Assembly: GCF_000746825.1 (NCBI RefSeq)
Contig: NZ_JQIV01000006.1
Span: forward strand, 1,418,784 to 1,482,783
DNA: 64,000 bases
Reading direction: 5' to 3'
Source: Carnobacterium inhibens subsp. inhibens DSM 13024
GTDB lineage: Bacteria > Bacillota > Bacilli > Lactobacillales > Carnobacteriaceae
The notes beneath the pieces are model-generated. The model was not told the DNA's origin and searched no databases. It was given only the letters and a program-made list of their open reading frames with translations. The position numbers were made by a program, and so were the translations under genes. Below are positions 11,079 through 59,671 of this stretch, one piece after another (the stretch's first letter is position 1; every line of letters begins with the position of its first letter).

Positions 11079-11136
11079 AATGTACTCCTTTAATTCATTT
11101 TTATAGGTAAACTTTTGTTAGTGGTGTTTAGTGTTA

Positions 11137-11739: not shown

Positions 11740-11762
11740 TCTTCCTCTCTAAAGTTAATTGC

Positions 11763-12620: not shown

Positions 12621-12623
12621 ATT

Positions 12624-13502
12624 CTACCTCTTTTCTCGTATGGCTAAACGTTGGATTACAGTAACCACAATCACGATCATTAAAAGAATGATTCCCATCG
12701 CAGAAGCCAAACCGGTTTTATTGTATTTAAAGGCTGTTGAGATCGTTTGAATGACAAATGTTGTTGTTCCGTTCGAACCGCCTGTCATAATATAAGGAAT
12801 ATCGAATACACTTAGTGAACCGCTGATTCCTAAAATGATATTTAAAAAGATAATATTTTTTATGCTTGGGACAATAATATAGAGGAATTTATCCCATTGG
12901 CTGGCGCCGTCGATTTCAGCTGCTTCATATATCTCAGGGTTAACCGATTGGATAGCTCCTAAAAAGATTAGAAAGTTAAAACCGGTATATCGCCAAACTG
13001 AAGTAAAAGCTAAAGAAATATTATTGATAGAGCGATCTCCCAACCAAAGACGAATTTGGTCATCTAGCCCCATGAATGACAAGACCGTATCCAATGTGCC
13101 TCCGCCTTTATAAAAATATAGAAAAATGAAACCAATCGCTACACCATTCAAAAGATATGGAAAAAACAGAACGCCTTTCCAAAAATTAGCGAACTTAACT
13201 TTGAATGACAATATCGTTGCGAATAATAGCGCAATACCTAATTGGAAAAATGTAGCGATGAAGTAGTACAAGCTCGTTTTAAAAACAGCAAAATAATTTG
13301 GATTTGTCAAAACCGTTCGATAATTGTCTGCCCCAACAAAGTTTGGATCAGGTGTAATTCCATTCCAATCGGTCAAACTGTACTGGAACATTTTAATTAA
13401 CGGATAATAAGAAAATAACAGCAATAAAGCAACTGGAATGATAGTAAATAAGAAAATGAGCACCTTTTTTTCTGTATTTTGATTTAACTTTATTTTATGC
13501 AC
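12624..13502 (-). CDS. sugar ABC transporter permease, MalF/UgpA type
   Basis: 292 residues, six membrane helices and the EAA loop EAAEIDGASQWDKFLYIIVP. I prefer the GTG start at 13502 because GGAGGGG lies 6 bp upstream; longer in-frame starts reach back into the intercistronic hairpin at 13527-13553. The first visible residues are then MHKIKLNQNTEKK, followed by the first membrane helix. It forms the transporter with the MalG-like partner and the lipoprotein binding protein. Confidence 0.92.
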   Translation of the reverse strand: MHKIKLNQNTEKKVLIFLFTIIPVALLLLFSYYPLIKMFQYSLTDWNGITPDPNFVGADNYRTVLTNPNYFAVFKTSLYYFIATFFQLGIALLFATILSFKVKFANFWKGVLFFPYLLNGVAIGFIFLYFYKGGGTLDTVLSFMGLDDQIRLWLGDRSINNISLAFTSVWRYTGFNFLIFLGAIQSVNPEIYEAAEIDGASQWDKFLYIIVPSIKNIIFLNIILGISGSLSVFDIPYIMTGGSNGTTTFVIQTISTAFKYNKTGLASAMGIILLMIVIVVTVIQRLAIREKR

Positions 13503-13526
13503 AGTATACCCCTCCATTAATAAATC

Positions 13527-13553
13527 GAGCGTCCCCACGAAACAGGGACGCTC
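13527..13553 (-). terminator. intercistronic hairpin between binding protein and permease genes
   Basis: A 9-bp perfect stem (GAGCGTCCC with GGGACGCTC) lies between the binding-protein stop and the permease start. Only ATTTATT follows, so it is a weak attenuator or mRNA-stabilising stem that would favour high expression of the binding protein over the permeases. Confidence 0.65.
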
Positions 13554-13564
13554 CTTTAGCTCAA

Positions 13565-14887
13565 TTAATTGTTGCCAACTGTTTCGATTGCATCAGCCCA
13601 ACGTGTATTAAATTCTTTCATAATATCTTCAAATGTTTCATTTGAATTTCCTATACCAGCATCAATAATGCGTTGTTTTTCCAAGTCAGTAGAACCTACG
13701 CCCAATTCAGACATATTGTTCACGTCAGGGAATAATGATTCTTTGCCTTGAGGTGCTGGGTTTTCTTCTAGTAAGATAACACCTGCATCTTGGCTGGATT
13801 GTAAAGCTGCTGGATATTCTCCACCGATTACAGCTGATAATCCACCATTGTCTACTGCATAATCTGATTCATTAACTAACCAATCTAATAAGGTACGTGC
13901 AGCTTCTTTATGTTCACTGTTCACATTAATGGCCAAGTTATAGTCTCCACCAATACCCATATATTGTTCGCCGTCTTCAGCTATAGTTGGGAAGGTTTGG
14001 AATGTGATATTTTCTGCATTTTCAGGAACGATATCTTGGATTTGTGGTACAGCCCAGCTTCCTAAAACCATGACCCCAACTTTTCCATTTGCCAAGTCTA
14101 CTTTTGATTGTTCCCAATCAGATGTTGTTGGATCTGCTTCAATCAATCCTTTATTAGCTACTTGATATAAAGTGTCATAGATCGTATACATTGTGTCGCC
14201 TTTTTCAAATGGAGCAGAATCTTGTGCTAATTTTGTTGTTACATCTGGATCACCAGAAACTCCTGTACGTGTGAAGTCCCAGTTAGATAATGTCCAACCT
14301 GCAGCATAGTTTGTGTATAACGGAGTTACATCAGGAGTTTTTTCTTTAATTGTTTCTAAAGCAGCAATAAAGTCTTCTGGCGTTTTAGGGAACTCGTTGA
14401 TCCCAGCATCTTTAAATACTTGCATGTTTACGACCATGCCTGTTGCATTCATCTGTGATGGGATACCGTATTGAACGCCTTCAAATGAACGATCATTCAG
14501 TCCCATATACGTTTCGCCTAACTCTTCTTTGTCTCCTAAAGGTTCAAAGAATAATTCAAAATCTTGTGGTGCAATATCCGCCGGCAGCATCAATAGATCC
14601 CCGTATTCTTCTGTGTTCATTCGTGTCTTCATTTGACCTGCATAATCGGTAATCGTTTCGATCTCTACTTTAATATCAGGATGTTCTTCATTAAATTCTG
14701 TTATGTATTCATCCCATTTGCCATTCGTTTCCCAGTCTGTTTTATGGTTGATGAATGTAATTGTTTCAACACCATCTGCTGCATCAGTTTCCTTCGTGCT
14801 TTCTCCCCCACATGCTGCTAACCCCAAAACAGAAGCGATTGCCAAACTTGCCAAACCAGCTTTACCAAAAACGGAATTTCTTTTCAT
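13565..14887 (-). CDS. extracellular sugar-binding lipoprotein (SBP family 1)
   Basis: 440 residues. The signal peptide ends in the lipobox LAAC (Cys25), so the mature protein is lipid-anchored on the outer face of the membrane. The rest is a family 1 solute-binding protein with the usual start of the mature fold (ETITFINHKTDWETNGKWDE). It delivers oligosaccharides to the two permeases encoded downstream. GAGGAGG precedes the ATG. A promoter with a palindromic operator at the -35 and a cre site just after the -10 lies directly upstream, so the gene can be expressed separately from GH113. Manno-oligosaccharide specificity is inferred from the locus only. Confidence 0.92.
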   Translation of the reverse strand: MKRNSVFGKAGLASLAIASVLGLAACGGESTKETDAADGVETITFINHKTDWETNGKWDEYITEFNEEHPDIKVEIETITDYAGQMKTRMNTEEYGDLLMLPADIAPQDFELFFEPLGDKEELGETYMGLNDRSFEGVQYGIPSQMNATGMVVNMQVFKDAGINEFPKTPEDFIAALETIKEKTPDVTPLYTNYAAGWTLSNWDFTRTGVSGDPDVTTKLAQDSAPFEKGDTMYTIYDTLYQVANKGLIEADPTTSDWEQSKVDLANGKVGVMVLGSWAVPQIQDIVPENAENITFQTFPTIAEDGEQYMGIGGDYNLAINVNSEHKEAARTLLDWLVNESDYAVDNGGLSAVIGGEYPAALQSSQDAGVILLEENPAPQGKESLFPDVNNMSELGVGSTDLEKQRIIDAGIGNSNETFEDIMKEFNTRWADAIETVGNN

Positions 14888-34749: not shown

Positions 34750-36168
34750 ATGAATAAACAAAAATTATCTTTCCCACAAGACTTTTGGTGGGGTTCTGCA
34801 TGGTCGGCTGAACAAGCTGAGGGAAGAGGAGAAACTGGAAAAGCTGAAACTGTTTGGGAAAGGTGGTACAAAGAACAACCGTATCGCTTTTACCAAAGAA
34901 TAAGTTCAGAAATAACTACTGATCACATTCATCACTATAAAGAAGATGTACAGTTAATGAAACAAACTGGACATAATTCATTTCGTGTTTCAATTTCTTG
35001 GGCAAGAATGTTTCCAAATGATGGTATTGGTGAAGTAAATCCTAACGCAATTGCTTTTTATAAAGATTTATTTAAAGAAATGAATGAAAATGGTATCAAG
35101 GTCTTTGCAAATCTTTATCATTTTGATATGCCAGCTAAATTACAAGATATGGGCGGCTGGGAATCCCGTAAAGTCATTGATGCATACGTAAATTTTGCTG
35201 ATATGTGTTTTAAAGAATTTGGTGACTTAGTTTACCACTGGTTCACCTTTAATGAACCACTTGGGCCTATCTTAGGTTCATATCTAGAAGATTTTCATTA
35301 TCCAAATATTGTTGATTTTAAACGAGGTGCCCAAGCAGCTTTCTTTACAATCTTAGCTCATGCTAAAGCTATTCAAGCCTTCAAAAAATATAATTTATCT
35401 AGCAAAATAGGAGTCATTCTAAACTTAAGTCCAACGTTCCCAAGAAGCCAAAACCCCGCTGACGTCAATGCCGCTGAAATTGCTGACCTATTTTATACAA
35501 GAAGTTTTCTTGATCCAATGGTCAAAGGAACTTTCCCTAATAAATTAGTAAATTTATTAAAAGAATATGATCAAATGCCTGTCGACTTTACTGAATCAGA
35601 TTTAGCATGTATTGCTGAAAATACTTCACAAATACTAGGATTAAATTATTATGAACCTCGTCGAGTAAAAGCTCGTTTAACAGCGATTAACCAAGATGGC
35701 CCATTTTTACCAGAATGGTTCTTTGAAAATCACGTTATGCCTGGGCGTCGGATGAATGAATACAGAGGTTGGGAGATTTATGAAAAAGGTGTTTATGATT
35801 TATGCATGGATATTAAAAATAATTATGGGAATATTGAAGCATTCATTTCTGAAAACGGTATGGGAGTTGCAAATGAAGAACGTTTCATGGATGAAAGTGG
35901 TCAAGTAATTGATTCATACCGTATTGAATTCATTAAGGATCACTTGGCATATTTATGGAAAGCAATTAATAATGGATGTAATATTAAAGGTTATCATTTA
36001 TGGGCCTTTATCGATTGCTGGTCATGGATTAATTCTTACAAAAACCGCTACGGATTAGTCTCTTTAGATTTACCAACTCAAAAACGAACAATTAAGAAAA
36101 GTGGAGAATTTTACAAACAATTAAGTGATGAGAACGGTTTTGAATACGACAAAGATTTATTAGTTTAA
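34750..36168 (+). CDS. glycoside hydrolase family 1 enzyme, PTS-linked
   Basis: 472 residues. Acid/base E169 in TFNEP, nucleophile E368 in SENGMG. The phosphate-site segment is S425-W-I-N-S-Y-K-N432-R-Y434, again with Asn where 6-phospho-beta-glycosidases have Lys. It shares many blocks with the GH1 at 7412-8824 (FHYPNIVD, PGRRMN, ENGMGV), so the two are paralogues. The divergent EIIC would deliver a phosphorylated disaccharide, which is at odds with the missing lysine unless the neighbouring KN pair compensates. AAGGAGG precedes the start. Cytoplasmic. Confidence 0.9.
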   Translation: MNKQKLSFPQDFWWGSAWSAEQAEGRGETGKAETVWERWYKEQPYRFYQRISSEITTDHIHHYKEDVQLMKQTGHNSFRVSISWARMFPNDGIGEVNPNAIAFYKDLFKEMNENGIKVFANLYHFDMPAKLQDMGGWESRKVIDAYVNFADMCFKEFGDLVYHWFTFNEPLGPILGSYLEDFHYPNIVDFKRGAQAAFFTILAHAKAIQAFKKYNLSSKIGVILNLSPTFPRSQNPADVNAAEIADLFYTRSFLDPMVKGTFPNKLVNLLKEYDQMPVDFTESDLACIAENTSQILGLNYYEPRRVKARLTAINQDGPFLPEWFFENHVMPGRRMNEYRGWEIYEKGVYDLCMDIKNNYGNIEAFISENGMGVANEERFMDESGQVIDSYRIEFIKDHLAYLWKAINNGCNIKGYHLWAFIDCWSWINSYKNRYGLVSLDLPTQKRTIKKSGEFYKQLSDENGFEYDKDLLV

Positions 36169-36196
36169 TATATGCTGAAGAATCCATTCAGCAAAA

Positions 36197-36243
36197 AAAG
36201 ATAGGACAAAACTTTTGAATGGTTTTGTTCTATCTTTTATTTT
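36197..36243 (+). terminator. Rho-independent terminator
   Basis: AAAGATAGGACAAAAC pairs with GTTTTGTTCTATCTTT (36222-36237) with one G-T pair, followed by TATTTT. Ends the GH1 gene. Confidence 0.88.
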
Positions 36244-36380
36244 ATAACTATACGCATCATTACTGGACAATGACAGAGGACCAAAGTTTTCCTTTATATC
36301 TAACCATTTATAATGTTCTGATGTAATTTAGGTGTTTCCAGAACCTCATATATAATGTATAAGTTCTCATATTAAAAAAG

Positions 36381-38426
36381 TTACTCTTTAAGAACTCTAA
36401 CCTCATAAGAATTCAATAGTATTTTTCCTTCTATTATTTCAGACGACTCTATATCCACAACTGTTTTGTTTAAGACTACCTCTTGGGTATCTGTCGAAAA
36501 ATTCATCAAAAAGTAATAGCTCACGCCTTCCTTTATCCGTGTTTGCACAGAGACTTCAAACTTGGGTTCATTAATAAGGGAATTAGCTAAATATAATTTT
36601 TCAATAATAGGTTTGTAAAAGTCTTTCAAAAAGTCTCGGTTTGTTCTAGCTGCTAGATAATAAGCTTGACCTGATCCGAATGAATTTTTAACCACTGCTG
36701 GTGTATTTTTGTAGAATTCTGCTTGGTAAGTACCCATAACTTCAGCTTGAGTGACATCAATTATGCCGGAATAATCTTTTATTTGATACTGTTTCCCTTG
36801 AAACTTCAATGAATTAAATTCATCTGGGTATAGAGTATCAAGTTCTTTCAAACTAATACCAAAAATTTCTTGAAGTTCAGATGGCCATCCCCCAATATTC
36901 ACTAAGTCTGTCTCGTTCACTATCCCAGTAAAATAGCTAGATAATAATGTTCCTCCACTACTCACATAGTTGCTTAGTTTACTAATTGTTTTTTCATCCA
37001 TTAAATAGAGCATCGGAGCAATCAATAAATCATACTGATCAAATTCTTGTTCCGACGTAATGATATCAACAGCTATATCATTTTCCCAAAAGACAGAATA
37101 ATGTTCCTGAAGCGTTTGTGGGTATTGTCTTGTTGGTCGGCCAAATCCACCGCCTCTTTTTAAAGCCCAATTGCTGTCCCAGTCAAATATAATTGCGACT
37201 TTTGAGTCTTTAGTTGCTCCTTTTATTTCGGAGATTTTCTCTAGTCTACTTCCGTATTCTGAGACTTCTTTAAATACTCGATTCTCCCGTGAATTGTCAT
37301 GGCCTACAACTGCTCCATGAAATTTCTCTGAATTTCCTCGAGACTGCCTCCACTGAAAATAGAGAGTACTATCTGATCCATGCGCAATTTGCTGCATAGA
37401 GCTTAGCATATGCATGCCTGGACGTTTCGATTTATTAAATTGGTGCCCATTTACTTCACTAGGTGTTGATTCCATTACTAAGAATGGTTTTTGTTTTAAA
37501 GACCAGTATTGGTCATGAACATAAGCAGATTTCATGGCTGTTTCAGCGATCGATTCATAGTTGTTATTCCAATCTGGATAACTGTCCCAACTCACAATAT
37601 CTACATATTTAGCAAATTTTCCATAATCGATACCTTCCAAGGGGATAAAATCATGCTGCTCATGACCTTCTGCCATAAAGTTAGTTGTTACAGGTACATC
37701 TGGAGTGATTTGACGAATCGGTTTGATTTCATTTAAGTAAAAATTAATCGTCATATCTGTGTTAAATCTTTTCCAATCAAGGTCCATTCCATGTACTTTA
37801 TGTTCACCCAAAGGAGATGGCGGAAGGACTTGGCTCCAATCCGTATATTTATTTCCCCAAAAACTCATCAGCCATGCCTTATTTACTTCTTCTAACTCTC
37901 CATATTTTTTCTTTAACCACTGCTGCCAGTTTTCTTTACAATAGTCACAATAGCATTCACCAGAATATTCATTTGAAATATGCCACATCAGCAATGCTGG
38001 ATGATTCCCATATCTTTCAGCCAGTTTTTGATTTATGATACGGACTTTTTCCCGATATATCGGAGAAGAATAACAATGATTGTGTCGAAAACCTTGAGTA
38101 TGCTTTTGCCCAAGTGAATTGGTTCGATTGACCTCTGGATACTTTTGACTCAACCATTGCGGTCTTCCACCACTCGGCGTTGCAAGAATCACATTCCCAC
38201 CAAATTTATGAACATCATCAAAAATGCGATCCAACCATTCAAAAGTAAATTCTCCTTCACTCGGTTCCAACGCCCACCATGAAAAGACTCCCACAGTGAC
38301 AGTGTTGACATTCGCTTCCTGCATCATTTCAATATCTTCATTTAAAATTTCTGGGTAATCTAGCCATTGATCAGGATTATAATCCCCACCATGTAGAAAT
38401 CTTTTTTCTAAATCAAAATGAACCAC
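36381..38426 (-). CDS. beta-galactosidase, GH42
   Basis: 681 residues, the usual GH42 length. Acid/base E153 in SNEYSGEC, nucleophile E319 in VMESTPSEVN. Cys118, Cys158, Cys160 and Cys163 form the zinc site seen in many GH42 enzymes. A trimerisation domain with a glutamine-amidotransferase-like fold follows (about 400-600). No signal peptide. The start is GTG, 2 bp after the GH36 stop, with GGGGG upstream. It would release beta-galactose from imported galactosides, here alongside an alpha-galactosidase. Confidence 0.93.
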   Translation of the reverse strand: MVHFDLEKRFLHGGDYNPDQWLDYPEILNEDIEMMQEANVNTVTVGVFSWWALEPSEGEFTFEWLDRIFDDVHKFGGNVILATPSGGRPQWLSQKYPEVNRTNSLGQKHTQGFRHNHCYSSPIYREKVRIINQKLAERYGNHPALLMWHISNEYSGECYCDYCKENWQQWLKKKYGELEEVNKAWLMSFWGNKYTDWSQVLPPSPLGEHKVHGMDLDWKRFNTDMTINFYLNEIKPIRQITPDVPVTTNFMAEGHEQHDFIPLEGIDYGKFAKYVDIVSWDSYPDWNNNYESIAETAMKSAYVHDQYWSLKQKPFLVMESTPSEVNGHQFNKSKRPGMHMLSSMQQIAHGSDSTLYFQWRQSRGNSEKFHGAVVGHDNSRENRVFKEVSEYGSRLEKISEIKGATKDSKVAIIFDWDSNWALKRGGGFGRPTRQYPQTLQEHYSVFWENDIAVDIITSEQEFDQYDLLIAPMLYLMDEKTISKLSNYVSSGGTLLSSYFTGIVNETDLVNIGGWPSELQEIFGISLKELDTLYPDEFNSLKFQGKQYQIKDYSGIIDVTQAEVMGTYQAEFYKNTPAVVKNSFGSGQAYYLAARTNRDFLKDFYKPIIEKLYLANSLINEPKFEVSVQTRIKEGVSYYFLMNFSTDTQEVVLNKTVVDIESSEIIEGKILLNSYEVRVLKE

Positions 38427-38428
38427 CT

Positions 38429-40678
38429 TTATTTACCCCCGTTCTTGTCACTTTCAACTAAATGATAAATATAAGATTGAAAATCACCTTTTACCTGCGC
38501 TTGATGATGATTTGCACCGTTAAACTGGTAAGGTTTTCTAAGCCCAAAATGACTAAGTACTTTACCGCTGACTTCTTCTGATTTATTGACTGAATAAATT
38601 TTATCATCTGTTAAAAATGGTACCTTTATATAATCTAAAGCTGGAGGATTAGCTACGGCCATTTTCCGATAAAATCCAATAATGAATTCACTTTTATCTT
38701 CATTCGCCACGCCCCATGAAACTTCGTTCGTATCAACAAATGGATCTAACAATTGGAAAAATTCTCCGTGAACCAATAGATTTCTATGTTTTTTATAAAA
38801 AGAAATACACGTTTTAATTTCTTCTTTTTCCTCATCACTGAGTTTTGTAAGATCCAGTTCATAACCAAGAGGGCCAAAAATTGAAACATTCTGACGCGTC
38901 TGCAATGATGTTACCCGTTCTACTTGATGATTTGGACTAGCTGATACATGGTTGCTGAATGTGGACAGCGGATATCCCAATAGCGTGCCTGTTTGAATTG
39001 TTAATCTTTCAATAGCATCACTATCATCACTTGGCCAAATTTGAGGACTATAAAACAATATACCTAGATCATATCTTCCTCCACCACCTGCACAACCTTC
39101 AATTAATATATCCGGAAAATCACTCAGGATTTTTTCATATAGTGCATATACTCCTAAAATATACCTATGGAAAAATTCTGTTTGCGGTACACCATTGGCT
39201 TGCAGATAAGTTGAATAGGCTTCTGTTATGTTTCTGTTCATATCCCATTTTATATATTCCAAGTTCGTTTCCAGAATAACTTCCTTCATTTGCCCATAAA
39301 TTTCATCTACTACTTTGGGATTTGAAAAATCAAGAACATATTGGCCTCGTCCAATTGATACTCTAGAATACGAGTGTCGCACAACCCATTCAGGATGATC
39401 CTTATAAAGTTGGCTTTCCGGCGATACCATCTCAGGTTCAAACCATATTCCAAGTTGAAGTCCCATTTGATGTATACTATCAGCGAATGTACCAATTCCT
39501 TTGGTAAACTTATTCTTATCGTAATACCAGTCTCCTAATGAACTTCTATCGTTATTTCTTTTCCCAAACCAGCCATCGTCTACTACAAAACATTCCATTC
39601 CTAGTTCTTTGCCTAATTTAGCAAGCTCTAATAATTTATCTTGATCAAAGTCAAAGTAAGTAGCTTCCCAATTATTAAAAACAATTGGTCTAGGAGTTTT
39701 TTTCCACTCTCTGTTGATGATGTGCTTCTCTGTAAATCCAGCAAATTGACTTGAAATCCCGTTCAATCCTTCATCGCTATACATTAGAATGGCTTCTGGA
39801 GTTACAAAACTCTTTGATGGTTGTAGCTGCCAAGAAAACTGACTTGGATTAATCCCAATCATAAGTCTTGTTTTATCCCACTCATCAACTTCTGCCTGTG
39901 CCAGGAAATTGCCTGAATAAATGATGTTGGCAGCATATACTTCACCTTTATTAATCTTGGCGTTTTCTTCTACCAAAGCAACAAAAGGGTTATGTTGATG
40001 CCCAGATGCGCCTTTTAATGAGCCTACAGAAACGGTACCTTGTGCTAATTTTCTTTTCTTAGGATGTCTTTCTTTTAGCCATGCACCAGATAAATGTAAA
40101 AAATCATAGTTAGCAGTTGGAAGTTCTAAAACACCACTTAACATTTTTTCTATCATTACGGATTCCGGACCGATATTAATTAATTTTTGGCTCCTTACAA
40201 CAGCTCCAAAATCTTCAAATAGTGTAAATTGCATTTCTAAATTAAGTTTATGCTCTTCATCCTCTAGTTGAATAATGAGCGTTTCAGATTCTCCTTCTAA
40301 AGCATAGGTTGAAGGGACAGCTAAGTTTCTTTCTTTTTTCTTTTCTATCCGGTAATCAATAAATTTAAAGTCTAAATACCAAGGATCGTTATTATGAGAT
40401 ACCTCTATTGCCCCTTCTTTAAAATCTGAAGATCCATAAACGGGGTATTCCTGAAACCTATCTGTTAAAGTAAATAGGTCATCATCAGTGGAGAATTTAA
40501 CCGTACCTGCTGATTTATTATTTCTTTCCGTAAGATATTGAATGTCCGAATCAGACAATTCACCCAGAGTTTTTCCATAATATAAATGTCCTAAATGGTT
40601 ATTTTCCATCACATGAAATACGTAACTTATTTTATTATTTTTTAAATGAAAAAAATTTCCATTTCTAACTTCAATCAT
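38429..40678 (-). CDS. alpha-galactosidase, GH36 (second copy)
   Basis: 749 residues. Nucleophile D479 in YIKWDMNR, acid/base D551 in PSDDSDA; VDDGWFGKR, GIWFEPEMVS and EGCAGGGGRYD match the family. It is clearly a paralogue of the enzyme at 8847-11078 but diverged, and belongs to the LacI/PTS operon rather than the ABC operon. Intracellular. It is followed at 2 bp by GH42. Confidence 0.93.
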   Translation of the reverse strand: MIEVRNGNFFHLKNNKISYVFHVMENNHLGHLYYGKTLGELSDSDIQYLTERNNKSAGTVKFSTDDDLFTLTDRFQEYPVYGSSDFKEGAIEVSHNNDPWYLDFKFIDYRIEKKKERNLAVPSTYALEGESETLIIQLEDEEHKLNLEMQFTLFEDFGAVVRSQKLINIGPESVMIEKMLSGVLELPTANYDFLHLSGAWLKERHPKKRKLAQGTVSVGSLKGASGHQHNPFVALVEENAKINKGEVYAANIIYSGNFLAQAEVDEWDKTRLMIGINPSQFSWQLQPSKSFVTPEAILMYSDEGLNGISSQFAGFTEKHIINREWKKTPRPIVFNNWEATYFDFDQDKLLELAKLGKELGMECFVVDDGWFGKRNNDRSSLGDWYYDKNKFTKGIGTFADSIHQMGLQLGIWFEPEMVSPESQLYKDHPEWVVRHSYSRVSIGRGQYVLDFSNPKVVDEIYGQMKEVILETNLEYIKWDMNRNITEAYSTYLQANGVPQTEFFHRYILGVYALYEKILSDFPDILIEGCAGGGGRYDLGILFYSPQIWPSDDSDAIERLTIQTGTLLGYPLSTFSNHVSASPNHQVERVTSLQTRQNVSIFGPLGYELDLTKLSDEEKEEIKTCISFYKKHRNLLVHGEFFQLLDPFVDTNEVSWGVANEDKSEFIIGFYRKMAVANPPALDYIKVPFLTDDKIYSVNKSEEVSGKVLSHFGLRKPYQFNGANHHQAQVKGDFQSYIYHLVESDKNGGK

Positions 40679-40758
40679 AATCCTTTAATTCCTTTTCAAT
40701 GGCTTTTTTTTGATTTTATAATCTTCATTTGAATCAGTTTCCACTATTTTCTGACTGC

Positions 40759-41211
40759 TTATGAAACATGCATTGATAAGTTATCAATATATCTCATTCT
40801 TTTTGCTATTCCTCTATTGTAAAAAAGCTTATAGAAAAACCCAATCAACATAAAACCATATTGATTCCTTGTTTCCGAAAACGTATTTTTTTCTGAATAA
40901 ATCAGAATATCTTTGCCTTTTTTATCTTTTTTAAATTCGTACATTTGTAAAATCATACCCGATGAATAGCTAGTTTTCGTTTGAAGTGTTTCTTCAGCCT
41001 TTAGTTTTGTAATTTCCATCACACTGGAAACCGGAAGGCTTTGGAGTTTTGTCGTTAAGTTGCATTGAACAGATGTCCCCTCCTCTAAAGAGATAATTTT
41101 GGGATCGTTCTTTTGAAAATACTGCAATTGCTCATCAACTAACACCTTAAAGACAGAAGATTTATCAGATTTCAATACATACTTATAACTCAATGTGTCA
41201 AGACTTATCAT
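40759..41211 (-). CDS. DUF3284 protein linked to the PTS
   Basis: 150 residues resembling DUF3284, a START/SRPBCC-like small domain found beside lactose/cellobiose-type PTS genes in Lactobacillales. Its function is unknown. No catalytic motif is obvious. The ATG overlaps the EIIC stop by 4 bp (ATGA), so translation is coupled to the permease. An accessory role in transport or in handling the sugar phosphate is a guess. Confidence 0.7.
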   Translation of the reverse strand: MISLDTLSYKYVLKSDKSSVFKVLVDEQLQYFQKNDPKIISLEEGTSVQCNLTTKLQSLPVSSVMEITKLKAEETLQTKTSYSSGMILQMYEFKKDKKGKDILIYSEKNTFSETRNQYGFMLIGFFYKLFYNRGIAKRMRYIDNLSMHVS

Positions 41212-42545
41212 AAGTTATCCTCGACAGGATACTCAGTTTTTACTTTTTCTTTGTATACTGGTTTTTCATGATCATCATTTTGTTCTTCTTTCAAATATTC
41301 TTTATCCATAGCCATTAAAAATGGAATCCAAATTGCTGTCATAACAACTACTGTAACGATTTGAAGGATTGCACCCGAAATTGATCCTGTTCCAACCCAA
41401 CCAGAAAATAATATAGGGGTCGTCCATACGACAGTTGCTCCTATCGGTCTTGGAACTAATCCTACTGAGATTGCGAAATAAGAAATGGTTGTTGAGGCTA
41501 AAGGTGCTAATATCCATGGAATAAAGGCTATCGGATTTAAAACAACTGGTAACCCAAAAGTCATGGGTTCCGATACATTGAAAATAGCTGGTGCCATGAT
41601 CGTTTTCATGGTCGTTTTCATTCGAATGGATTTTGCAATAAAGAAAGCCATTGCTATTGAAATCCCTAATTGCATTCCTTGGTTTACGAAAACTCCCATA
41701 AAAGTAGTGTTAATAATATGAGGCAATTCTGCCCCTACTTTATATGCTTCATAGTTTTCAAGTGCAAGTGCACTCATGATAGGATCTATGATTGCATTGA
41801 TCACCAAAGTTCCATGAATACCAAACCACCAGAAAAGTTGTGTAAAGAACACTGCTATCAATACAGCAGGTAAAGTACCACCTAATCCCATCAAAGGTTT
41901 TTGCAACAATTCATATACAAAATCGACTGCATTGCCCCAAGACGTAAAAGTAAATGTATATCTAATAACATTAAAAACAAATAATGGAACAGCTCCTGGA
42001 ATAATCGCAACAAATGATTGTGCAATCATAGGGGGGACTGAGTCCGGCATTTTAATAGTAAAACCTTTTCTTCCAATTCGACAATAAATTTCTGTAGCGA
42101 TAAGGGCTGTAAGAATCCCAACAAACATACCTTCTGCACCTAGTTTTGAGATGGGTATAAATGTGCCCATTGACTCATCTTGTCCAAATGGCAAAAGCAT
42201 AATAAAAGAAGATAATGATATAGCTCCTGCAAATACTTGTGGCTGATCATAATGTCCAGCAAGATGATACCCTATACCATAAACAATAAAGACAGCGGAT
42301 ATGCTCATTGTAGCGTTTCCAACTGGACCAAAAAAATCATTAAAAAAAGTATTAACAACTTCAGGCAAATATTGACTAAATCCAAATGTAGTAGGTAAGT
42401 TTTGGATAATAATCATAATCGATGCAAACATTGTTGCAGGGAAAGCCATCATAAAACCATCACGCAAACTCAATAAATACTTGTTATCGCCTATTAATGT
42501 GGCAATAGGGCCCATTTTTTCAGCAAATTTTTCACCGAATTTCAT
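41208..42545 (-). CDS. PTS EIIC, lactose/cellobiose family (second)
   Basis: 445 residues with about ten membrane segments and FNVSEPMTFGLPVVLNP, including the EPxxFGxP motif, plus a charged C-terminal tail (KEYLKEEQNDDHEKPVYKEK). First gene of the operon EIIC, DUF3284, GH36, GH42. EIIA and EIIB are not encoded here. The combination of alpha- and beta-galactosidase suggests a galactoside as substrate. Its promoter carries a perfect GTAAACGTTTAC palindrome. Confidence 0.93.
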   Translation of the reverse strand: MKFGEKFAEKMGPIATLIGDNKYLLSLRDGFMMAFPATMFASIMIIIQNLPTTFGFSQYLPEVVNTFFNDFFGPVGNATMSISAVFIVYGIGYHLAGHYDQPQVFAGAISLSSFIMLLPFGQDESMGTFIPISKLGAEGMFVGILTALIATEIYCRIGRKGFTIKMPDSVPPMIAQSFVAIIPGAVPLFVFNVIRYTFTFTSWGNAVDFVYELLQKPLMGLGGTLPAVLIAVFFTQLFWWFGIHGTLVINAIIDPIMSALALENYEAYKVGAELPHIINTTFMGVFVNQGMQLGISIAMAFFIAKSIRMKTTMKTIMAPAIFNVSEPMTFGLPVVLNPIAFIPWILAPLASTTISYFAISVGLVPRPIGATVVWTTPILFSGWVGTGSISGAILQIVTVVVMTAIWIPFLMAMDKEYLKEEQNDDHEKPVYKEKVKTEYPVEDNL

Positions 42546-48103: not shown

Positions 48104-48151
48104 TCACTACATATTGTGTTATCATATTTTCGTAAGCACAACATGTAGATT
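48104..48151. promoter_or_regulatory. two NrdR boxes
   Basis: TCACTACATATTGTGT (48104-48119) and GCACAACATGTAGATT (48136-48151) resemble the NrdR consensus ACACwATATATwGTGT. Their starts are 32 bp apart, about three helical turns, the arrangement expected for NrdR. They lie about 50-100 bp before nrdI. Confidence 0.72.
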
Positions 48152-48202: not shown

Positions 48203-48667
48203 ATGGCAAATAAAATAAACATTATTTACATCAGTTTAAACGGCAATACGAAATACTTTGTTGAGTGTTTAAGCGAATACATAGAAGCAACTAAGGACAT
48301 AGTTGTAAAATCGCTGAATATTAAAGATCTAAAAGGAGAAACTTTTCCAGTGGATGAACCCTTTGTCAGTTTCTTGCCGACTTATTTAAATGGTGGAAAT
48401 GGAATCCATACAGGAGATAAGGAAGTATTAACCACTAGACTAGGAGATTTTATAGCATCTAACGATAACTTTAAACTCTGTTACGGAATTATTGGAAGTG
48501 GGAATCGGAATTTCAATAATCAATTCTGCCTAAGTGCTAAACAATATACAGAAAGATTTGGGTTTCCATTAATCGATGTCTTTGAATTACGTGGGACGCA
48601 GTCAGATGTAAAACGAATTGCCAACTTAATCATTAATCACCAAGAAGAGTTTCTTAACGAACTTTAG
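48203..48667 (+). CDS. nrdI: NrdI flavodoxin-like protein
   Basis: 154 residues with a flavodoxin fold (IIYISLNGNTKYFVECLSEY for the FMN phosphate; YGIIGSGNRNFNNQF near the flavin ring). NrdI supplies the oxidant for assembly of the manganese-tyrosyl radical in class Ib NrdF. AGAAGGAG precedes the ATG. First gene of the operon; no nrdH glutaredoxin gene is adjacent. Confidence 0.93.
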   Translation: MANKINIIYISLNGNTKYFVECLSEYIEATKDIVVKSLNIKDLKGETFPVDEPFVSFLPTYLNGGNGIHTGDKEVLTTRLGDFIASNDNFKLCYGIIGSGNRNFNNQFCLSAKQYTERFGFPLIDVFELRGTQSDVKRIANLIINHQEEFLNEL

Positions 48668-48689: not shown

Positions 48690-50888
48690 TTGCCAAATCA
48701 AACAACTACTATCAAAAGTGCTAAAACTTACTTTTACCTTAATAACTTGGTTAATATTCCAGTCAATGGTGAAATTCCTTTACAAAAGGATCAGGAAGCA
48801 TTAAAAGCTTACTTTAAAGAAGAAATCATTCCCAATACCTTAACATTTCCTTCATTAGAAGAAAAATTGGCATTCTTGGTGGATAACAATTACATTGACT
48901 TAGACGTCTTAAACCTTTATAAGCAGGGTGAAAGTAATGACTATGATTTTGCATTTATTAAAAAAATATTCAAACAAATTTATGCTGCTAACTTTAAGTT
49001 CAAAAGTTTTATGGGTGCTTATAAATTCTACTCACAGTATGCATTAAAAACAAATGATCATTCGAAATACTTAGAACAATTTGAAGATCGTATTGCTTTT
49101 AATGCTTTATACCTAGGCAATGGGGACAGAACATTAGCTGTCCAACTTGCTGAGGAACTTATCTCTCAACGCTATCAACCAGCTACTCCTACTTTTCTAA
49201 ATGCCGGGAAAAAGAAACGCGGGGAAATGATTTCTTGTTTCTTAATTGATGTTGCTGATTCAATGCTTTCTATTGGCCGAGGAGTAAACTCTGCTTTGCA
49301 ACTTTCTCGAATTGGTGGTGGAGTTGGAGTTAACCTATCAAATATCCGATCAGCTGGCGATCCAATTAAAGATATCGCCAATGCTTCTTCTGGTGTCCTT
49401 CCAGTAATGAAGCTGCTAGAAGATGCATTTAGTTATAGTAACCAACTTGGGCAACGTAATGGCGCAGGCGTAGTCTATTTGAATGTTTTCCATCCAGATA
49501 TCTTAGGCTTTTTGTCAACTAAGAAAGAAAATGCAGATGAGAAAATACGAGTTAAAACACTCTCTTTAGGGTTAGTCGTTCCTGATAAGTATTATGAATT
49601 AATAAAAACAAATAAACCGATGTATCTATTTAGCCCCTACAGTGTAGAAAAAGAATATGGTATTCCGTTCTCATACATAGACTTGTCTGCTGAATATGAC
49701 AATATGGTTGCGAAATTGAACATCAAAAAAACTCAAATCAATGCTCGTGAATTGGAGCAAGAGATTTCGCGTTTGCAACAAGAATCCGGCTATCCGTATA
49801 TTTTAAATATTGATACAGCCAATAACACAAATCCTGTTGACGGAAAAATTATTATGAGTAACTTATGTTCAGAGATTCTCCAACCGCAAGAACCTTCTAC
49901 ACTCAATGCTGACTTATCTTATGAACAAACAGGCACAGATATTAGTTGTAACTTGGGTTCGAGCAATATGATGAATATGCTGCAATCTCCTAATTTTGCT
50001 AAATCCGTTCATTTGGCAGTTCGTGCGTTAACAACTGTCACAGATTCAAGCAATGTGCTAGAGGTACCTACTGTTAGCAAAGGCAACTCTATGTACCACA
50101 CAATTGGTTTAGGTGCTATGGGATTGCATACCGCTTTAGCCTTGCAACAGATTGAATATGGTTCAGAAGAATCGATTGAATTCACTGAAGCTTATTTCTT
50201 AGCTTTAAATTATCATTCTTTGGCAGCAAGTAACGAAATAGCTCAAGAACGAGGAGAAACTTTTTTCGGATTTGAGAAATCCAAATATGCTGATGGCACA
50301 TACTTCAAACCCTACCTAGAAAGTGAATTCACAATAGCAAATGAAAAAGTAAAGGACATCTTTACTAACGTCCAATTGCCAACAGTTGCAGATTGGAAAG
50401 ACCTAAAAGAAAAAATTTCTAAGCACGGTTTGTATCACCGTAACCGTTTAGCCGTTGCGCCCAATGGTTCTATTTCATATGTAAATGAAACGAGCGCCTC
50501 CCTACATCCGATTACTCAACTTATTGAGAATCGCCAAGAGAAAAAAGTAGGCTCGATTTTTTATCCAGCACCTTTCCTTTCAAATGAAACTCTTCCATAT
50601 TACAAATCAGCTTATGACTATGATCAGCGTAAAATTATTGATATTTATGCCGCTGCTCAAAAACATATTGATCAAGGTATGAGCTTAACTTTATTTATGC
50701 GCTCAACTCTTCCTGAAAGTTTATACGAATGGAAAACAGACGCTTCCTCAAAACTGACAACTAGAGACTTGAACCGTCTGAGAAACTACGCTTGGACGAA
50801 AGGAATAAAATCACTTTACTATATCAGAACTTATACCGAAGATGACGAATTTACAATGGCAAATACTTGTGAATCCTGCATGATTTAA
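48690..50888 (+). CDS. nrdE: class Ib ribonucleotide reductase large subunit
   Basis: 732 residues. The redox pair is C183 and C420, the thiyl radical triad N391, C393, E395 (NLCSE), the radical-transfer tyrosines Y710 and Y711, and the C-terminal shuttle pair C727/C730. The protein is therefore complete and probably active. Residues 1-90 lack the ATP-cone of class Ia enzymes. The start is TTG, 9 bp after AGGAG. It reduces ribonucleoside diphosphates together with NrdF. Confidence 0.95.
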   Translation: MPNQTTTIKSAKTYFYLNNLVNIPVNGEIPLQKDQEALKAYFKEEIIPNTLTFPSLEEKLAFLVDNNYIDLDVLNLYKQGESNDYDFAFIKKIFKQIYAANFKFKSFMGAYKFYSQYALKTNDHSKYLEQFEDRIAFNALYLGNGDRTLAVQLAEELISQRYQPATPTFLNAGKKKRGEMISCFLIDVADSMLSIGRGVNSALQLSRIGGGVGVNLSNIRSAGDPIKDIANASSGVLPVMKLLEDAFSYSNQLGQRNGAGVVYLNVFHPDILGFLSTKKENADEKIRVKTLSLGLVVPDKYYELIKTNKPMYLFSPYSVEKEYGIPFSYIDLSAEYDNMVAKLNIKKTQINARELEQEISRLQQESGYPYILNIDTANNTNPVDGKIIMSNLCSEILQPQEPSTLNADLSYEQTGTDISCNLGSSNMMNMLQSPNFAKSVHLAVRALTTVTDSSNVLEVPTVSKGNSMYHTIGLGAMGLHTALALQQIEYGSEESIEFTEAYFLALNYHSLAASNEIAQERGETFFGFEKSKYADGTYFKPYLESEFTIANEKVKDIFTNVQLPTVADWKDLKEKISKHGLYHRNRLAVAPNGSISYVNETSASLHPITQLIENRQEKKVGSIFYPAPFLSNETLPYYKSAYDYDQRKIIDIYAAAQKHIDQGMSLTLFMRSTLPESLYEWKTDASSKLTTRDLNRLRNYAWTKGIKSLYYIRTYTEDDEFTMANTCESCMI

Positions 50889-50901: not shown

Positions 50902-51861
50902 ATGTCTTACTTACATTACAAAGCAATCAACTGGAATGAAATCGAAGATCATTTAGATCATTCAACTTGGGAGAAATTAACGTCATTATTTTGGTTAGAT
51001 ACTCGAATCCCTGTTACAAATGAAAAATCACAGTGGGAAGATCTTCCAGAAAATGAAAGAGAAGCATTCATGAAATCGTTGGCTGGGCTAGCTTCAGCAG
51101 CTACGTTCCAATCAGAGAAAGGTTACCTAGTAATTAATGAAGGAAAACACACTCAGCAGGAAGCCGCTATCTACAATAATATTCAATTTATTGAATCAGT
51201 TCATGCTAAAGCCTATAACACAATTCTTATAGGATTTAATGAATCAACAGAAGTTGATGGTGTCTTAACTTGGGCTGATAACAATGCAGAACTTCAATAC
51301 AGATTAGATCGTATTCTTGAAGTTTATAAAACAGGAAGTATACTTCAAAAACGAGCAGCAAACTTAATCTTGGAAGGAGTCCTAACCTATAGTGGTCTCT
51401 TTACTCCATTGCTTTACTGGACACAGAAGAAATTCACTAACGTTGCTGAAATTATTAAGTTGGTCCTCACGAATGAATCTTTACATTGCTTCTATATTAG
51501 TCACAAATTTCAACTAGGTTTTTCTGAATTATCACAGGAAGAACAAGCAGAATTGAGAGATTGGACTTTTGATTTGTTTGTTGATCTAGTAAAAAATGAA
51601 TTAACTTATATAGAACACATTTACTATGGAACTGATTGGCTTGAGGAAGTTAAAGTCTTTGTTCATCAACAGGCTAATAAAGCACTTATAAGTTTGGGAT
51701 TCGACCCTTTGTACCCTGAAACAGGTGCAAGTAATTCCCATATTGATTCCATCAACGTTATTTTAACTAAAGTAACTCATCATGAAGTCGGTAGACAATC
51801 AGGTATCAGCTTCCAATTTGATAAAGAAGATACCATGAATGAAGAAGACTATAACTTTTAA
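50902..51861 (+). CDS. NrdF-like small subunit with one metal ligand changed
   Basis: 319 residues. It has E98, H101 and radical Tyr105 (FIESVHAKAY), the Glu of LEGVLTYSG and the Glu/His pair of NESLHCFYISHKFQ. The first ligand, normally Asp in GLxLLDTxQ, is Ala67 here (GLASAATFQ). NrdF2, encoded next, has Asp66 at this site. Loss of one carboxylate should weaken or prevent metal-centre assembly, so this subunit may act as a partner or scaffold rather than a radical carrier. GGAGGG precedes the ATG; the gene follows nrdE by 13 bp. C-terminus ends NEEDYNF, typical of NrdF tails that bind NrdE. Confidence 0.88.
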   Translation: MSYLHYKAINWNEIEDHLDHSTWEKLTSLFWLDTRIPVTNEKSQWEDLPENEREAFMKSLAGLASAATFQSEKGYLVINEGKHTQQEAAIYNNIQFIESVHAKAYNTILIGFNESTEVDGVLTWADNNAELQYRLDRILEVYKTGSILQKRAANLILEGVLTYSGLFTPLLYWTQKKFTNVAEIIKLVLTNESLHCFYISHKFQLGFSELSQEEQAELRDWTFDLFVDLVKNELTYIEHIYYGTDWLEEVKVFVHQQANKALISLGFDPLYPETGASNSHIDSINVILTKVTHHEVGRQSGISFQFDKEDTMNEEDYNF

Positions 51862-51900
51862 CAAATAAATCCGGAATTTCATTTTAAGGAGGAAAAAATT

Positions 51901-52857
51901 ATGACTTCAAAACATAAAGTAATCAATTGGAATAAAATTGAAGATGAGTTAGACGATTATGTTTGGGATAAGGCAACCTCACAATTCTGGCTAGATACTC
52001 GTGTTCCTATTTCAAACGACTTAGCAGACTGGCGAGAACTTTCATCTATTGAACAAGAAGTTATTAAAAAGGTCGTTGGAGGTCTAGCATTGCTAGATAC
52101 ATTACAATCTGAAAAAGGTGTTAACGCTATGCGGGAGGACGTTCGTACTCATAAAGAAGCTGCTATTCTGAATAATTTTTTGTTTATGGAAACCATCCAT
52201 GCGAAGAGTTATGGAACGATTCTAACTTCTTTGAACAGTATCAAAAGCATCAATGAGATTTATGATTGGATGAATAATGATGAACGAATGCAATACAAAG
52301 CAAAACGGATTAATGACATCTATCAAACTGGTAATGGTTTGCAAAAGAAGATTGCAAGTATCTTTTTAGAAGGTATTTTATACTACAGTAACTTCTTCGC
52401 CCCCTTATGGTACCGTGGCAGTAATAAACTGGCTAATCTAGCTGAGCTTATTAAATTGATTATCCGTGATGAATCAGTACATGGTACTTACTTAGGGTAT
52501 AAATTCCAATTAACTTACAATGAGTTACCTGAAGAAGAGCAAAAGAAATTGCTGGATTGGATGTACCCTTTGTTGGAAGATCTGATGGAAAATGAGTTGG
52601 CCTACACTGAAGAAATCTATAGTCCCATAGGTATAGCTGAAGATGTTAAAACTTTTGTTCGTTACAATGCTAATAAATCATTGCAAAATATGGGGTTCCA
52701 AGCTTATTATAAAAATGCTGATTTAGGCGATGTTAACCCTATTGTGATGAATGGTATTTCAATTGAAACATCGAACCATGACTTCTTCTCACAAGTTGGA
52801 GCTGGATATCTTATGGGCGATGCTGAATCAATGGTAGATGAAGACTACGATTTTTAA
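51901..52857 (+). CDS. nrdF: class Ib ribonucleotide reductase small subunit
   Basis: 318 residues with the complete ligand set: D66 (GGLALLDTLQ), E97, H100 and radical Tyr104 (FMETIHAKSY), Glu in LEGILYYSN, and Glu/His in RDESVHGTY. It should carry the Mn or Fe tyrosyl radical. The C-terminus VDEDYDF fits binding to NrdE. AAGGAGG precedes the ATG, 39 bp after the paralogous gene. Last gene of the operon. Confidence 0.94.
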   Translation: MTSKHKVINWNKIEDELDDYVWDKATSQFWLDTRVPISNDLADWRELSSIEQEVIKKVVGGLALLDTLQSEKGVNAMREDVRTHKEAAILNNFLFMETIHAKSYGTILTSLNSIKSINEIYDWMNNDERMQYKAKRINDIYQTGNGLQKKIASIFLEGILYYSNFFAPLWYRGSNKLANLAELIKLIIRDESVHGTYLGYKFQLTYNELPEEEQKKLLDWMYPLLEDLMENELAYTEEIYSPIGIAEDVKTFVRYNANKSLQNMGFQAYYKNADLGDVNPIVMNGISIETSNHDFFSQVGAGYLMGDAESMVDEDYDF

Positions 52858-52862: not shown

Positions 52863-52905
52863 AAAGAAGAACCGTGCTTGTAATAGACGGTTCTTCTTTA
52901 TTTTT
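52863..52905. terminator. bidirectional terminator
   Basis: AAAGAAGAACCGT pairs perfectly with ACGGTTCTTCTTT (52887-52899); TTTTT follows on both strands. Ends the nrd operon and the convergent acetyltransferase gene. Confidence 0.92.
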
Positions 52906-57866: not shown

Positions 57867-58703
57867 TCAATACCATTCTCTTCGTTTATTGGCGGCTCGA
57901 CTAAAGATTGTTTTCAGCTCTTTATCATCATTCTCTTCTAGCGTGTATTTCAAAGCATCCAATTCAATTTCGAAGTGTTCAATCGATTTCAACAAGGCTG
58001 TTCGGTTATTTAAAAATAATTCACTCCATAAATCAGCATTTATATCAGCGATCCTTGTGAGCTCTTGAAAACTATTTCCAGCAAACATCAGTGTTTCTTC
58101 TGAAGCTTGCGTACTATTTACGACCGCTACAGACAAAACATGCATCAATTGACTGACATAAGCGATTTGTTCATCATGTTTTTCAGGAGAAACTCGCGTT
58201 ACTTGATTAAATCCAATCTCTTTATAAAGCTTTTCAATAAGTTTTAAAGAAGATTCTTTATTTCTAGAGATAGGAGTGAGCAAAGCATTGGCTCCTATAA
58301 ATCGCGTATGATCGGCTCCAATGATTCCTTTTTTTTCACTGCCGCGCATGGGATGTGCAAATACAAAGTCGACTGTTGAAGGAAGAACTTTAGACATTTG
58401 TTTTATAATCGCTGTTTTAACGCCTGTTACATCTGTTAGAATGGCACCTTCTTTTAGGACACTTTTGTGCTGCTCGACAAATGGCGCAATTTGATTTGGA
58501 TAAAGAGAAATTATAATGATATCCATCTCCGGTAAAATATCGCCGGCTTCCACAAACCCCTTTTGAATCATTCCCTGTTCTACAGCAATTCTTACTGTTG
58601 ATTCGTTGATATCTATCCCATAAATATTTTTGTATCCAGCTGCTTGAAGGCCCATGGCAAAAGAGCCTCCAATGGCTCCTAACCCAACAATTGCAATATT
58701 CAT
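57867..58703 (-). CDS. tyrA: prephenate dehydrogenase
   Basis: 278 residues: NAD-binding GLGAIGGSFAMGL, FAHPMRGSEKKG with the catalytic His, and a helical dimer domain. No C-terminal ACT domain, so feedback control must act elsewhere. Converts prephenate to 4-hydroxyphenylpyruvate for tyrosine. The ATG overlaps the stop of the upstream fused gene by 4 bp (ATGA). Third gene of the minus-strand operon. Confidence 0.92.
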   Translation of the reverse strand: MNIAIVGLGAIGGSFAMGLQAAGYKNIYGIDINESTVRIAVEQGMIQKGFVEAGDILPEMDIIIISLYPNQIAPFVEQHKSVLKEGAILTDVTGVKTAIIKQMSKVLPSTVDFVFAHPMRGSEKKGIIGADHTRFIGANALLTPISRNKESSLKLIEKLYKEIGFNQVTRVSPEKHDEQIAYVSQLMHVLSVAVVNSTQASEETLMFAGNSFQELTRIADINADLWSELFLNNRTALLKSIEHFEIELDALKYTLEENDDKELKTIFSRAANKRREWY

Positions 58704-59671
58704 CGTTCCCCACCTTTATTCCTGACTTCTTTTAATGCTTGGATTGCCAATAAGTAACCTGTTGCTCCAAAACCTGAAATTTGTCCAATACAAGCTGGTG
58801 CTATAACAGACTCTTTACGAAAAGATTCACGGGCATGAATCGCACTTAAATGCACTTCAACAGTTGGTATCATTATTGACTTCACTGCATCGTGAATGGC
58901 ATAACTGTAATGGGTATACGCTGCCGGATTGAGGACGATCCCATCTGCCTTATCCATATGGGCTTGTTGAATCCGGTCGATCAATTCCCCTTCAGAATTG
59001 CTTTGAAAAAAAGAACAGTCTACTTCTTGTGTTTCAGCATATTTTTGAATCTTACTTTCAATCTCTTCCAACGTTTGTGTTCCATAAATTTCGGGTTCAC
59101 GAGTCCCTAAGAAATTTAAATTTGGGCCATTAATAATAACGATTTTCATATTATCTTCTCCTTTATGCGCAATGATTTCTGGTAAATGATGCTTAATCTC
59201 ATTCAATACATCTTCCAAATCGGATCGATTCTCCACTCGAAAATCAGCTGCTTTTTGATACAAACTAAACCGCTCTTCATGTAATTGGTATAGCTTGTTA
59301 TTACCTTCTTTTAATAAAGGCCGATGTGCAATTTCGATATCTTTGATAATGTGTTCAACAGGCCGATCGATAAAAATAACCCAGCCTGTTTTTCTTAATG
59401 CCTCAATGTTTTCTGGATTGAGAACGACTCCGCCACCACACGAAATAACAGCATACGTTTCTTTTGCAGCTAGCTCTGCACAAGCCTCGGTCTCTATTGC
59501 TCGAAAATACGCTTCACTCACTTCAAACAATTCTGGAATAGACTGATTCGTTAGTTGTTCAATAAAAAGATCCATATCTCTAAATGGCAAGTCTAATTGT
59601 TGACTTAGTAGTTTTCCAACACTACTTTTCCCGCTTCCTGTCATCCCAATCAATACAATATTTGTTTTCAT
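58700..59671 (-). CDS. fused shikimate kinase and type II 3-dehydroquinate dehydratase
   Basis: 323 residues. Residues 1-165 are AroK: P-loop GMTGSGKSS (9-17), D32/D34, GGG at 79-81 and R117 in the HRPLL lid. After a linker (HHLPEIIAHKGED), residues 175-323 are AroQ: NGPNLNFLGTREP, Y196, NPAAYTH (248-254) and EVHLS (272-276). The two enzymes act one step apart in the shikimate pathway, with AroE between them. Inside the fusion AAGGAG lies 8 bp before an in-frame ATG at 59149, so separate AroQ may also be made. Overlaps aroE and tyrA by 4 bp each. Confidence 0.9.
   Translation of the reverse strand: MKTNIVLIGMTGSGKSSVGKLLSQQLDLPFRDMDLFIEQLTNQSIPELFEVSEAYFRAIETEACAELAAKETYAVISCGGGVVLNPENIEALRKTGWVIFIDRPVEHIIKDIEIAHRPLLKEGNNKLYQLHEERFSLYQKAADFRVENRSDLEDVLNEIKHHLPEIIAHKGEDNMKIVIINGPNLNFLGTREPEIYGTQTLEEIESKIQKYAETQEVDCSFFQSNSEGELIDRIQQAHMDKADGIVLNPAAYTHYSYAIHDAVKSIMIPTVEVHLSAIHARESFRKESVIAPACIGQISGFGATGYLLAIQALKEVRNKGGER

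Follow-up and report, generated by a model that had tools for sequence, protein, structure and literature searches.

A conserved pair of NrdF paralogues in Lactobacillales, one of them with a disabled cofactor site, proposed as the two halves of a class Ib ribonucleotide reductase small subunit

Why should a class Ib ribonucleotide reductase operon carry two adjacent genes for its small subunit, the first of which lacks a metal ligand? The question is raised by the window analysed here, a stretch of 64,000 nucleotides from Carnobacterium inhibens, in which the original prediction had placed two tandem NrdF genes after nrdI and nrdE. The coordinates bear this out: nrdI, nrdE and the two NrdF genes, hereafter Fa and Fb, follow one another in this order on the forward strand. 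A putative pair of NrdR-box-like elements (CTACATATTGTG at 48107 and CACAACATGTAG at 48137; 48107-48148, +) was located 5' of nrdI, using what we take to be the NrdR-box consensus, and similar pairs were seen by eye 5' of nrdI in nine of ten other inspected loci that hold the gene pair (weak in L158, none in L147). Downstream of Fb, a 12-bp hairpin with an 11-base loop followed by a T-rich stretch (52864-52905, +) is likely the operon terminator; it was recognised by eye, its loop exceeding the limit of the terminator scan, and is absent from the scan list. The first gene, nrdI (48203-48667, +), encodes the class Ib assembly flavoprotein (NCBIfam NF002714, 212.7 bits, cut-off 190) and nrdE (48690-50888, +; TTG start as listed, exact start unsure) the class Ib catalytic subunit (TIGR04170, 1071 bits, cut-off 750). 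Fa (50902-51861, +; 319 aa) belongs to Pfam PF00268 and reaches 291 bits with TIGR04171, short of the class Ib cut-off of 355 bits, as does a plasmid Fa with 194 bits, whereas Fb (51901-52857, +; 318 aa) passes it with 434 bits. The low score of Fa fits its looser product name in public records, where both genes are named ribonucleotide reductase beta subunits, a shared name under which the difference between them is easily overlooked. No NrdH-like frame of at least 40 aa was found directly 5' of nrdI in the window. A third, ordinary NrdF lies elsewhere in the same genome (six contigs, 2.75 Mb), beside its own nrdE and nrdI, and this locus is preceded by nrdH, as judged by eye.

Alignment to solved NrdF proteins showed that Fb of the window, with the motif GLALLDTLQS, possesses all six metal ligands and the radical tyrosine, as predicted. 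In Fa the corresponding motif is GLASAATFQS, where Ala67 (codon at 51100-51102, +) stands in place of the ligand aspartate, while E98, H101, Y105, E158, E192 and H195 are present. The original prediction was correct on Ala67, the five remaining ligands and the tyrosine, but its list of lesions was incomplete. It had overlooked Asn191 (51472-51474, +), a position that the residue survey described below found occupied by Asp in all Fb and ordinary NrdF and which we take to correspond to E. coli D237, a residue of the radical path, and Phe304 (51811-51813, +), which alignment and a survey of the tails place where Fb has a tyrosine. A sequencing or frameshift artefact was ruled out for Ala67, the same alanine being found in six genomes. 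It is fixed in all six orthologues of the window's family and, since none of the 37 distinct Fa sequences that we collected has Asp67, it is no lone mutation; the survey of relatives for the gene pair and its substitution, which had been suggested as a check, bears out the observation.

In order to follow these losses across the family, NrdF frames of at least 285 aa were sorted from the fetched loci up to L167, shorter ones being dropped, and residues were numbered as in Fa of the window. A frame was called Fa when it scored higher with an Fa profile than with an ordinary-NrdF profile, and the residues to be counted were not used for the call; Fb denotes NrdF of the other kind encoded 3' of an Fa gene. 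A mild circularity attaches to the following counts, since the strings TLQS and HAKSY guided the choice of seeds for the ordinary profile, made among eight loci, and losses had already been seen in members of the Fa profile when it was built. The 239 frames yielded 151 distinct sequences: 37 Fa, 36 Fb and 78 ordinary NrdF. Asp67 was absent from all 37 Fa (Ala in 26, Ser in 6, Thr and Tyr in 2 each, Asn in 1), none of which therefore holds the complete six-ligand set of a class Ib NrdF; Asp191 was likewise absent from all of them (Gly in 28, Asn in 9), and so was Tyr304, while each of these three residues was invariant in the 36 Fb and the 78 ordinary NrdF. The other ligands are kept to very different extents in the 37 Fa: E98 in 16, H101 in 34, E158 in 34, E192 in 9 and H195 in 9. 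Asp67 is the sole ligand lost in the window lineage (6 sequences), Asp67 and H101 are lost in the Enterococcus faecium and Lactococcus type (3), and in the remaining 28 E192 and H195 are gone too. The radical tyrosine Y105 is kept in 17 Fa and lost in 20. Position 162 is Ser or Thr in 30 Fa, and Phe166, termed strictly conserved in R2 proteins in a structural paper on Bacillus anthracis NrdF (PMC6754363), is retained in only one. Fb, in turn, presents everything expected of a class Ib NrdF, namely the six ligands, the radical tyrosine, the tail tyrosine and an operon with nrdI and nrdE. Compared with ordinary class Ib NrdF (solved structures 4n83, 3n37, 1r2f), Fb shares all its ligands, its radical tyrosine and its tail tyrosine, whereas Fa lacks three functional residues.

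The C-terminal tail deserves separate attention. In Fb and in the aligned solved NrdF proteins the tail tyrosine lies sixteen residues from the end, and at this aligned position (-16) none of the 37 Fa has a tyrosine. From the tail alignment we read Tyr304 as the equivalent of E. coli NrdB Y356, a residue described as kept in all characterised class I enzymes and essential for radical transfer (PMC8463856). Seven Fa carry a tyrosine elsewhere within 34 residues of the C-terminus: the Fa of an Enterococcus faecalis plasmid (L158) has it at -12 and again at -34, and the others have it between -22 and -34. A tyrosine four places downstream of the usual tail position is described in Plasmodium R2_e2 (PMC3824934). 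On the other hand, W31, Y317 and F319 are kept in all 37 Fa and the C-terminal DYxF motif is intact, so that the end of Fa should dock on NrdE.

These residue patterns bear on whether Fa could itself be catalytic through an altered site, either metal-free like that of class Ie or with a single metal ion. Y105 and five ligands are indeed present in Fa of the window, and partial metal binding is possible in this lineage because these residues are kept. Class Ie R2 proteins (VPK and QSK types) also resemble Fa in being NrdF-like with altered ligands, in having NrdI in most operons and, for the VPK type, in occurring partly in Lactobacillales (PMC11846895). However, in class Ie three glutamates are substituted and activity proceeds through a DOPA (PMC11846895), whereas Fa of the window has all three glutamates and has lost an aspartate instead. 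The original prediction had likewise set Fa apart from this class, on the ground that several carboxylates are replaced there. Membership of class Ie was rejected on the ligands, the corresponding positions in Fa being obtained by moving D112, DOPA150 and K237, as numbered in PMC11846895, by 45 residues: the window has E98, E158 and E192, and most Lactobacillus-type Fa have K98, E158 and S192, rather than the V/Q, P/S and K of class Ie. Fa further differs from class Ie in always lacking Asp67, Asp191 and the tail tyrosine and in being paired with an intact NrdF. With the essential tail tyrosine missing from its place in 37/37 Fa and Y105 lost in 20/37, a catalytic Fa appears highly improbable.

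We then asked how widely the pair occurs. Relatives of Fa were found in at least four Lactobacillales groups, both on chromosomes and on plasmids. In the window's family, Carnobacteriaceae (18 genomes), Fa adjoins Fb in six genomes from three genera, each of the other twelve having a single NrdF match, and no further close orthologue of Fa of the window appeared among the matches listed for 395 genomes of the order. Lactobacillus plasmids show the same architecture with a first gene more degenerate than Fa of the window, and a search of the order with such a plasmid Fa yielded three close copies (92-97%) as well as one distant copy each in G358, G236, G059 and G310. Genomes were also scanned with an Fa profile made from eleven Fa sequences. 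In the family of G325, scores of at least 390 bits (next 338) were reached by 24 of 397 genomes; in that of G358, 4 of 105 genomes reached at least 437 bits (next 333). We take these two families as Lactobacillaceae and Enterococcaceae, respectively, from likeness to named plasmid genes. G492, recognised from its DNA as the 25th Fa genome of the 397, scored 322 bits; distant Fa may thus score low and all these genome counts are lower bounds. In a class sample scanned for Fa outside the order, only the window's own genome reached the Fa score range (1/398, again a lower bound). One genome of the G325 family, G674, has two Fa copies on different contigs.

Plasmids are frequent carriers: among 441 records matching a Lactobacillus plasmid Fa, 165 had their best place at 60% identity or more. 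Close Lactobacillus-type pairs were found on plasmids of Pediococcus, Levilactobacillus and Lacticaseibacillus, and divergent pairs on plasmids of E. faecalis, E. faecium and Lactococcus lactis. The published gene table of a Lactobacillus pentosus plasmid lists two nrdF genes side by side and leaves their difference uncommented (PMC6662855), and NrdE, NrdF and NrdI are named in Table 2 of the description of Lactococcus plasmid pGdh442 (PMC3019208). On some E. faecium and Lactococcus plasmids the nrd genes are preceded by a divergently oriented gene for a Crp/Fnr family regulator (L159 539-1210, L160 1-494, L161 845-1516, L162 3182-3847). One of these plasmids, pEFA-99d7 of E. faecium (L162), carries an apparently damaged nrd operon at 3994-5871, with nrdI, a short match to the start of NrdF and an IS30 transposase. 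Desemzia incerta was the only record obtained from a contig scan with two short peptide patterns, a scan that gives no measure of absence. A phage origin of Fa was rejected by identity only, the best place reaching 60% identity in 0/722 (query P0001) and 0/599 (query P0003) matching phage records. Of three viral-contig scans, two gave one and the same contig with the pair and the third gave five ordinary-looking NrdF, three of which were read. The IMG/VR contig L168 (82 kb, classed as viral) bears a plasmid-type pair at its end.

In all 73 Fa loci analysed (many overlapping or near-identical, representing 40 distinct pairs), Fb followed Fa on the same strand, and the gap between them did not exceed 65 bases except in L159 (211) and L160 (927). 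In L160, an E. faecium plasmid, a thiol peroxidase gene (tpx, 4935-5426) sits between Fa and Fb, so that the two genes are much further apart than in any other of the 40 distinct pairs. The association also holds when starting from Fb: of 276 genomes in the order that were scanned with an Fb profile, nine reached at least 629 bits (next 530), all of them known Fa holders, and in a plasmid search with Fb, sampled as 60 rows spread over 516, all 25 records with an Fb identity of at least 68% held two places. The best 60 of the 441 records from the plasmid Fa search held two or three places each.

Could Fa nevertheless be a duplicate on its way to decay? Its rate of change is about 3.5 times that of Fb, and damage is seen in a few plasmid operons: Fa is split into two pieces in H189, nrdE is spread over two frames in L058, and L162 was mentioned above. 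We estimated dN/dS with the NG86 method, dropping pairs with dS outside 0.05-2.5. In the window's family the median was 0.135 for Fa (15/15 pairs, largest 0.235) and 0.031 for Fb (14/15 pairs); in the Lactobacillus type it was 0.104 for Fa (166/253 pairs usable) and 0.034 for Fb (135/276). Fa values of 0.126 (1/10 pairs usable) and 0.070 (one pair) were obtained for the G358 family with E. faecalis and for G059/G488, respectively, while none of the pairs in the E. faecium/Lactococcus set was usable. These values show purifying selection on Fa. With a dN/dS near 0.1, reading frames that are open across at least four groups, a retained tail and no internal stops in the Fa genome matches, decay is barely credible as an explanation, and that of a recent duplicate was ruled out by dN/dS and distribution. 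The same wide distribution, open frames and low dN/dS exclude a decaying paralogue unique to this strain, the outcome that had been named as telling against the original prediction.

A careful maximum-likelihood tree of 59 thinned rows placed Fa in one group (support 96/90), Fb in another (100/100) and the ordinary NrdF in a third (68/82), with a program warning that long Fa branches meet; a quick tree of 66 rows agrees with it. Distances among Fa and among Fb are strongly correlated over the 40 pairs (r = 0.98, reached in 0/2000 permutations). Descent within one operon would yield the same correlation, which thus shows that Fa and Fb are inherited together and not that they are in contact.

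Gene order, residue losses, co-occurrence, purifying selection and matching trees together point to a dedicated β-β′ small subunit, in which Fb (β) would perform the radical chemistry and Fa (β′) would serve as its structural partner, a reading to which we assign a probability of roughly two in three. The window operon would then encode an accessory, NrdI-dependent class Ib ribonucleotide reductase with a paired small subunit. Fb, with its metal pair, radical tyrosine and tail tyrosine, would generate and deliver the radical, while Fa, lacking Asp67, Asp191 and the tail tyrosine, is expected to be unable either to assemble a normal dimetal site or to hand a radical on to NrdE. Fa·Fb heterodimers would bind the NrdE dimer, Fb offering the single working radical path and Fa a second foot on NrdE. 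We infer that Fa has no chemistry of its own, that it pairs physically with Fb, that the enzyme works with the heterodimer and that Fa is needed for activity. Several observations count against this pairing: the six window-lineage Fa of the 37 keep five of six ligands and Y105, the seven Fa with a tyrosine elsewhere in the tail have it as near as -12, and the window genome possesses a separate ordinary NrdF with nrdI and nrdE.

The five AlphaFold2 models of Fa, built from nine alignment rows, had pLDDT values from 57.0 to 78.3; the best one (pLDDT 78.3, pTM 0.80, residues 1-11 and 294-319 below 50) predicts the ferritin-like R2 fold of NrdF and is matched best by ordinary NrdF folds, first of all by 4n83, Streptococcus sanguinis NrdF (TM 0.81/0.91). 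Since the alignment included ordinary NrdF, the model shows only that Fa is compatible with this fold. A model of a fused Fa-Fb chain was of very low confidence (pLDDT 35.5, pTM 0.23).

The closest precedents are eukaryotic. In yeast, R4 is described as lacking iron-ligating side chains, inactive alone and required for R2 folding (PMC3267527), and the enzyme as α2-β-β′ (PMC3824934). The likeness to Rnr2/Rnr4 drawn in the original prediction holds at the level of sequence: an intact and a degenerate R2 paralogue are co-inherited under purifying selection, and the degenerate one, a dead partner retained, has lost ligands and the tail tyrosine and has kept the NrdE-docking tail. In contrast to the yeast pair, which is of class Ia, Fa and Fb are bacterial and of class Ib with NrdI, they are encoded by adjacent genes of one operon, and the pair is known here from sequence. 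A second parallel is offered by apicomplexan R2_e1/R2_e2 (e.g. PfR2/PfR4): R2_e2 also lacks the tail tyrosine at its usual place, keeps the C-terminal residues, has lost the radical tyrosine in some members and shows longer branches, and in P. falciparum takes part in an α2-β-β′ complex through its interaction with R2 and R1; unlike Fa, however, it largely keeps its metal ligands and belongs to a eukaryotic class Ia enzyme (PMC3824934). Among bacteria, the authors of a report on Candidatus Liberibacter asiaticus speculated on a heterodimer with a non-functional β encoded by a truncated nrdB; that copy is short and matches the 3' end of full-length nrdB at more than 99% identity, whereas Fa is a conserved full-length paralogue. 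Our searches of the open-access PMC literature turned up no report of a heterodimeric bacterial NrdF.

Two other roles are conceivable for Fa. As a regulator, it would dock on NrdE by its intact tail and block or tune the access of Fb, or else sequester Fb. A protein with the fold and the docking tail and without the chemistry is just what a dead competitor for NrdE would look like, and a regulator would equally give adjacency and matching trees, which we count against the pair reading. However, in all pair loci inspected for gene order the Fa gene is flanked by nrdE and Fb, an arrangement that fits a stoichiometric subunit better than an inhibitor. Inert β′ partners have precedents in yeast and apicomplexans, whereas an inert R2 paralogue with an inhibitory function is not known to us, and we consider a regulatory role rather unlikely. 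As a maturation factor, Fa would associate transiently with Fb for metal loading or for the action of NrdI and then leave. Such a role would suit the presence of nrdI in the same operon, and a chaperone role is mentioned for yeast Rnr4 (PMC3824934), but the NrdE-docking tail, present in 37/37 Fa, would be needless in a protein that leaves before docking; we consider a maturation factor unlikely.

Fb is not simply an ordinary NrdF with a companion. Position 162 in Fa numbering (Fb codon 161, 52381-52383, +), where a phenylalanine caps the metal site of ordinary NrdF (78/78), is a tyrosine in 36/36 Fb. Equally clean differences are S106G, F109L, G165N, L173R, T64A and I94F (ordinary to Fb), so that Gly106, Leu109, Asn165 and Arg173 accompany Tyr162 in all 36 Fb where the 78 ordinary NrdF have Ser, Phe, Gly, Leu and Phe, respectively. 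We take position 208 of E. coli NrdB to match Fb position 162; a Phe-to-Tyr change at 208 of the E. coli protein yields a DOPA. With a tyrosine in place of the capping phenylalanine, the oxidant stored by Fb may be a different or modified tyrosine. In the B. anthracis NrdF paper, the residue at position 162 is given as Phe or Leu in R2 proteins and its role in electron transfer between the tyrosine and the metal site is held plausible (PMC6754363). One might go further and see in these operons a separate bacterial class I ribonucleotide reductase subclass, with an obligate β-β′ NrdF pair, Fa as scaffold only and Fb with a rebuilt radical pocket, but this extension is tentative and we regard it as doubtful.

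If Fa and Fb do form a heterodimer, they would be a bacterial case, in another ribonucleotide reductase subclass, of the division of labour described in yeast and apicomplexan parasites, and plasmids would have disseminated a paired NrdF in lactic-acid bacteria. For class Ia, the α-β interface is reported to be engaged in one half only, with support in classes Ib and Ic (PMC8463856). Given a small subunit that naturally offers one radical path, the half-of-sites reactivity of class I enzymes could be tested directly by asking whether one working β serves both catalytic subunits. A whole conserved family that does without the tail tyrosine also joins apicomplexan R2_e2 as a departure from the rule that characterised class I enzymes all retain this residue.

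Elsewhere in the window, a 323-aa frame at 58700-59671 (-) within an aro cluster appears by eye to be a fusion of shikimate kinase with a type II 3-dehydroquinate dehydratase that follows it. Two further clusters, at 7412-14887 and 34750-42545, contain by eye glycosidases and sugar transporters, and similar α-galactosidase-like proteins are encoded in them at 8847 and 38429.
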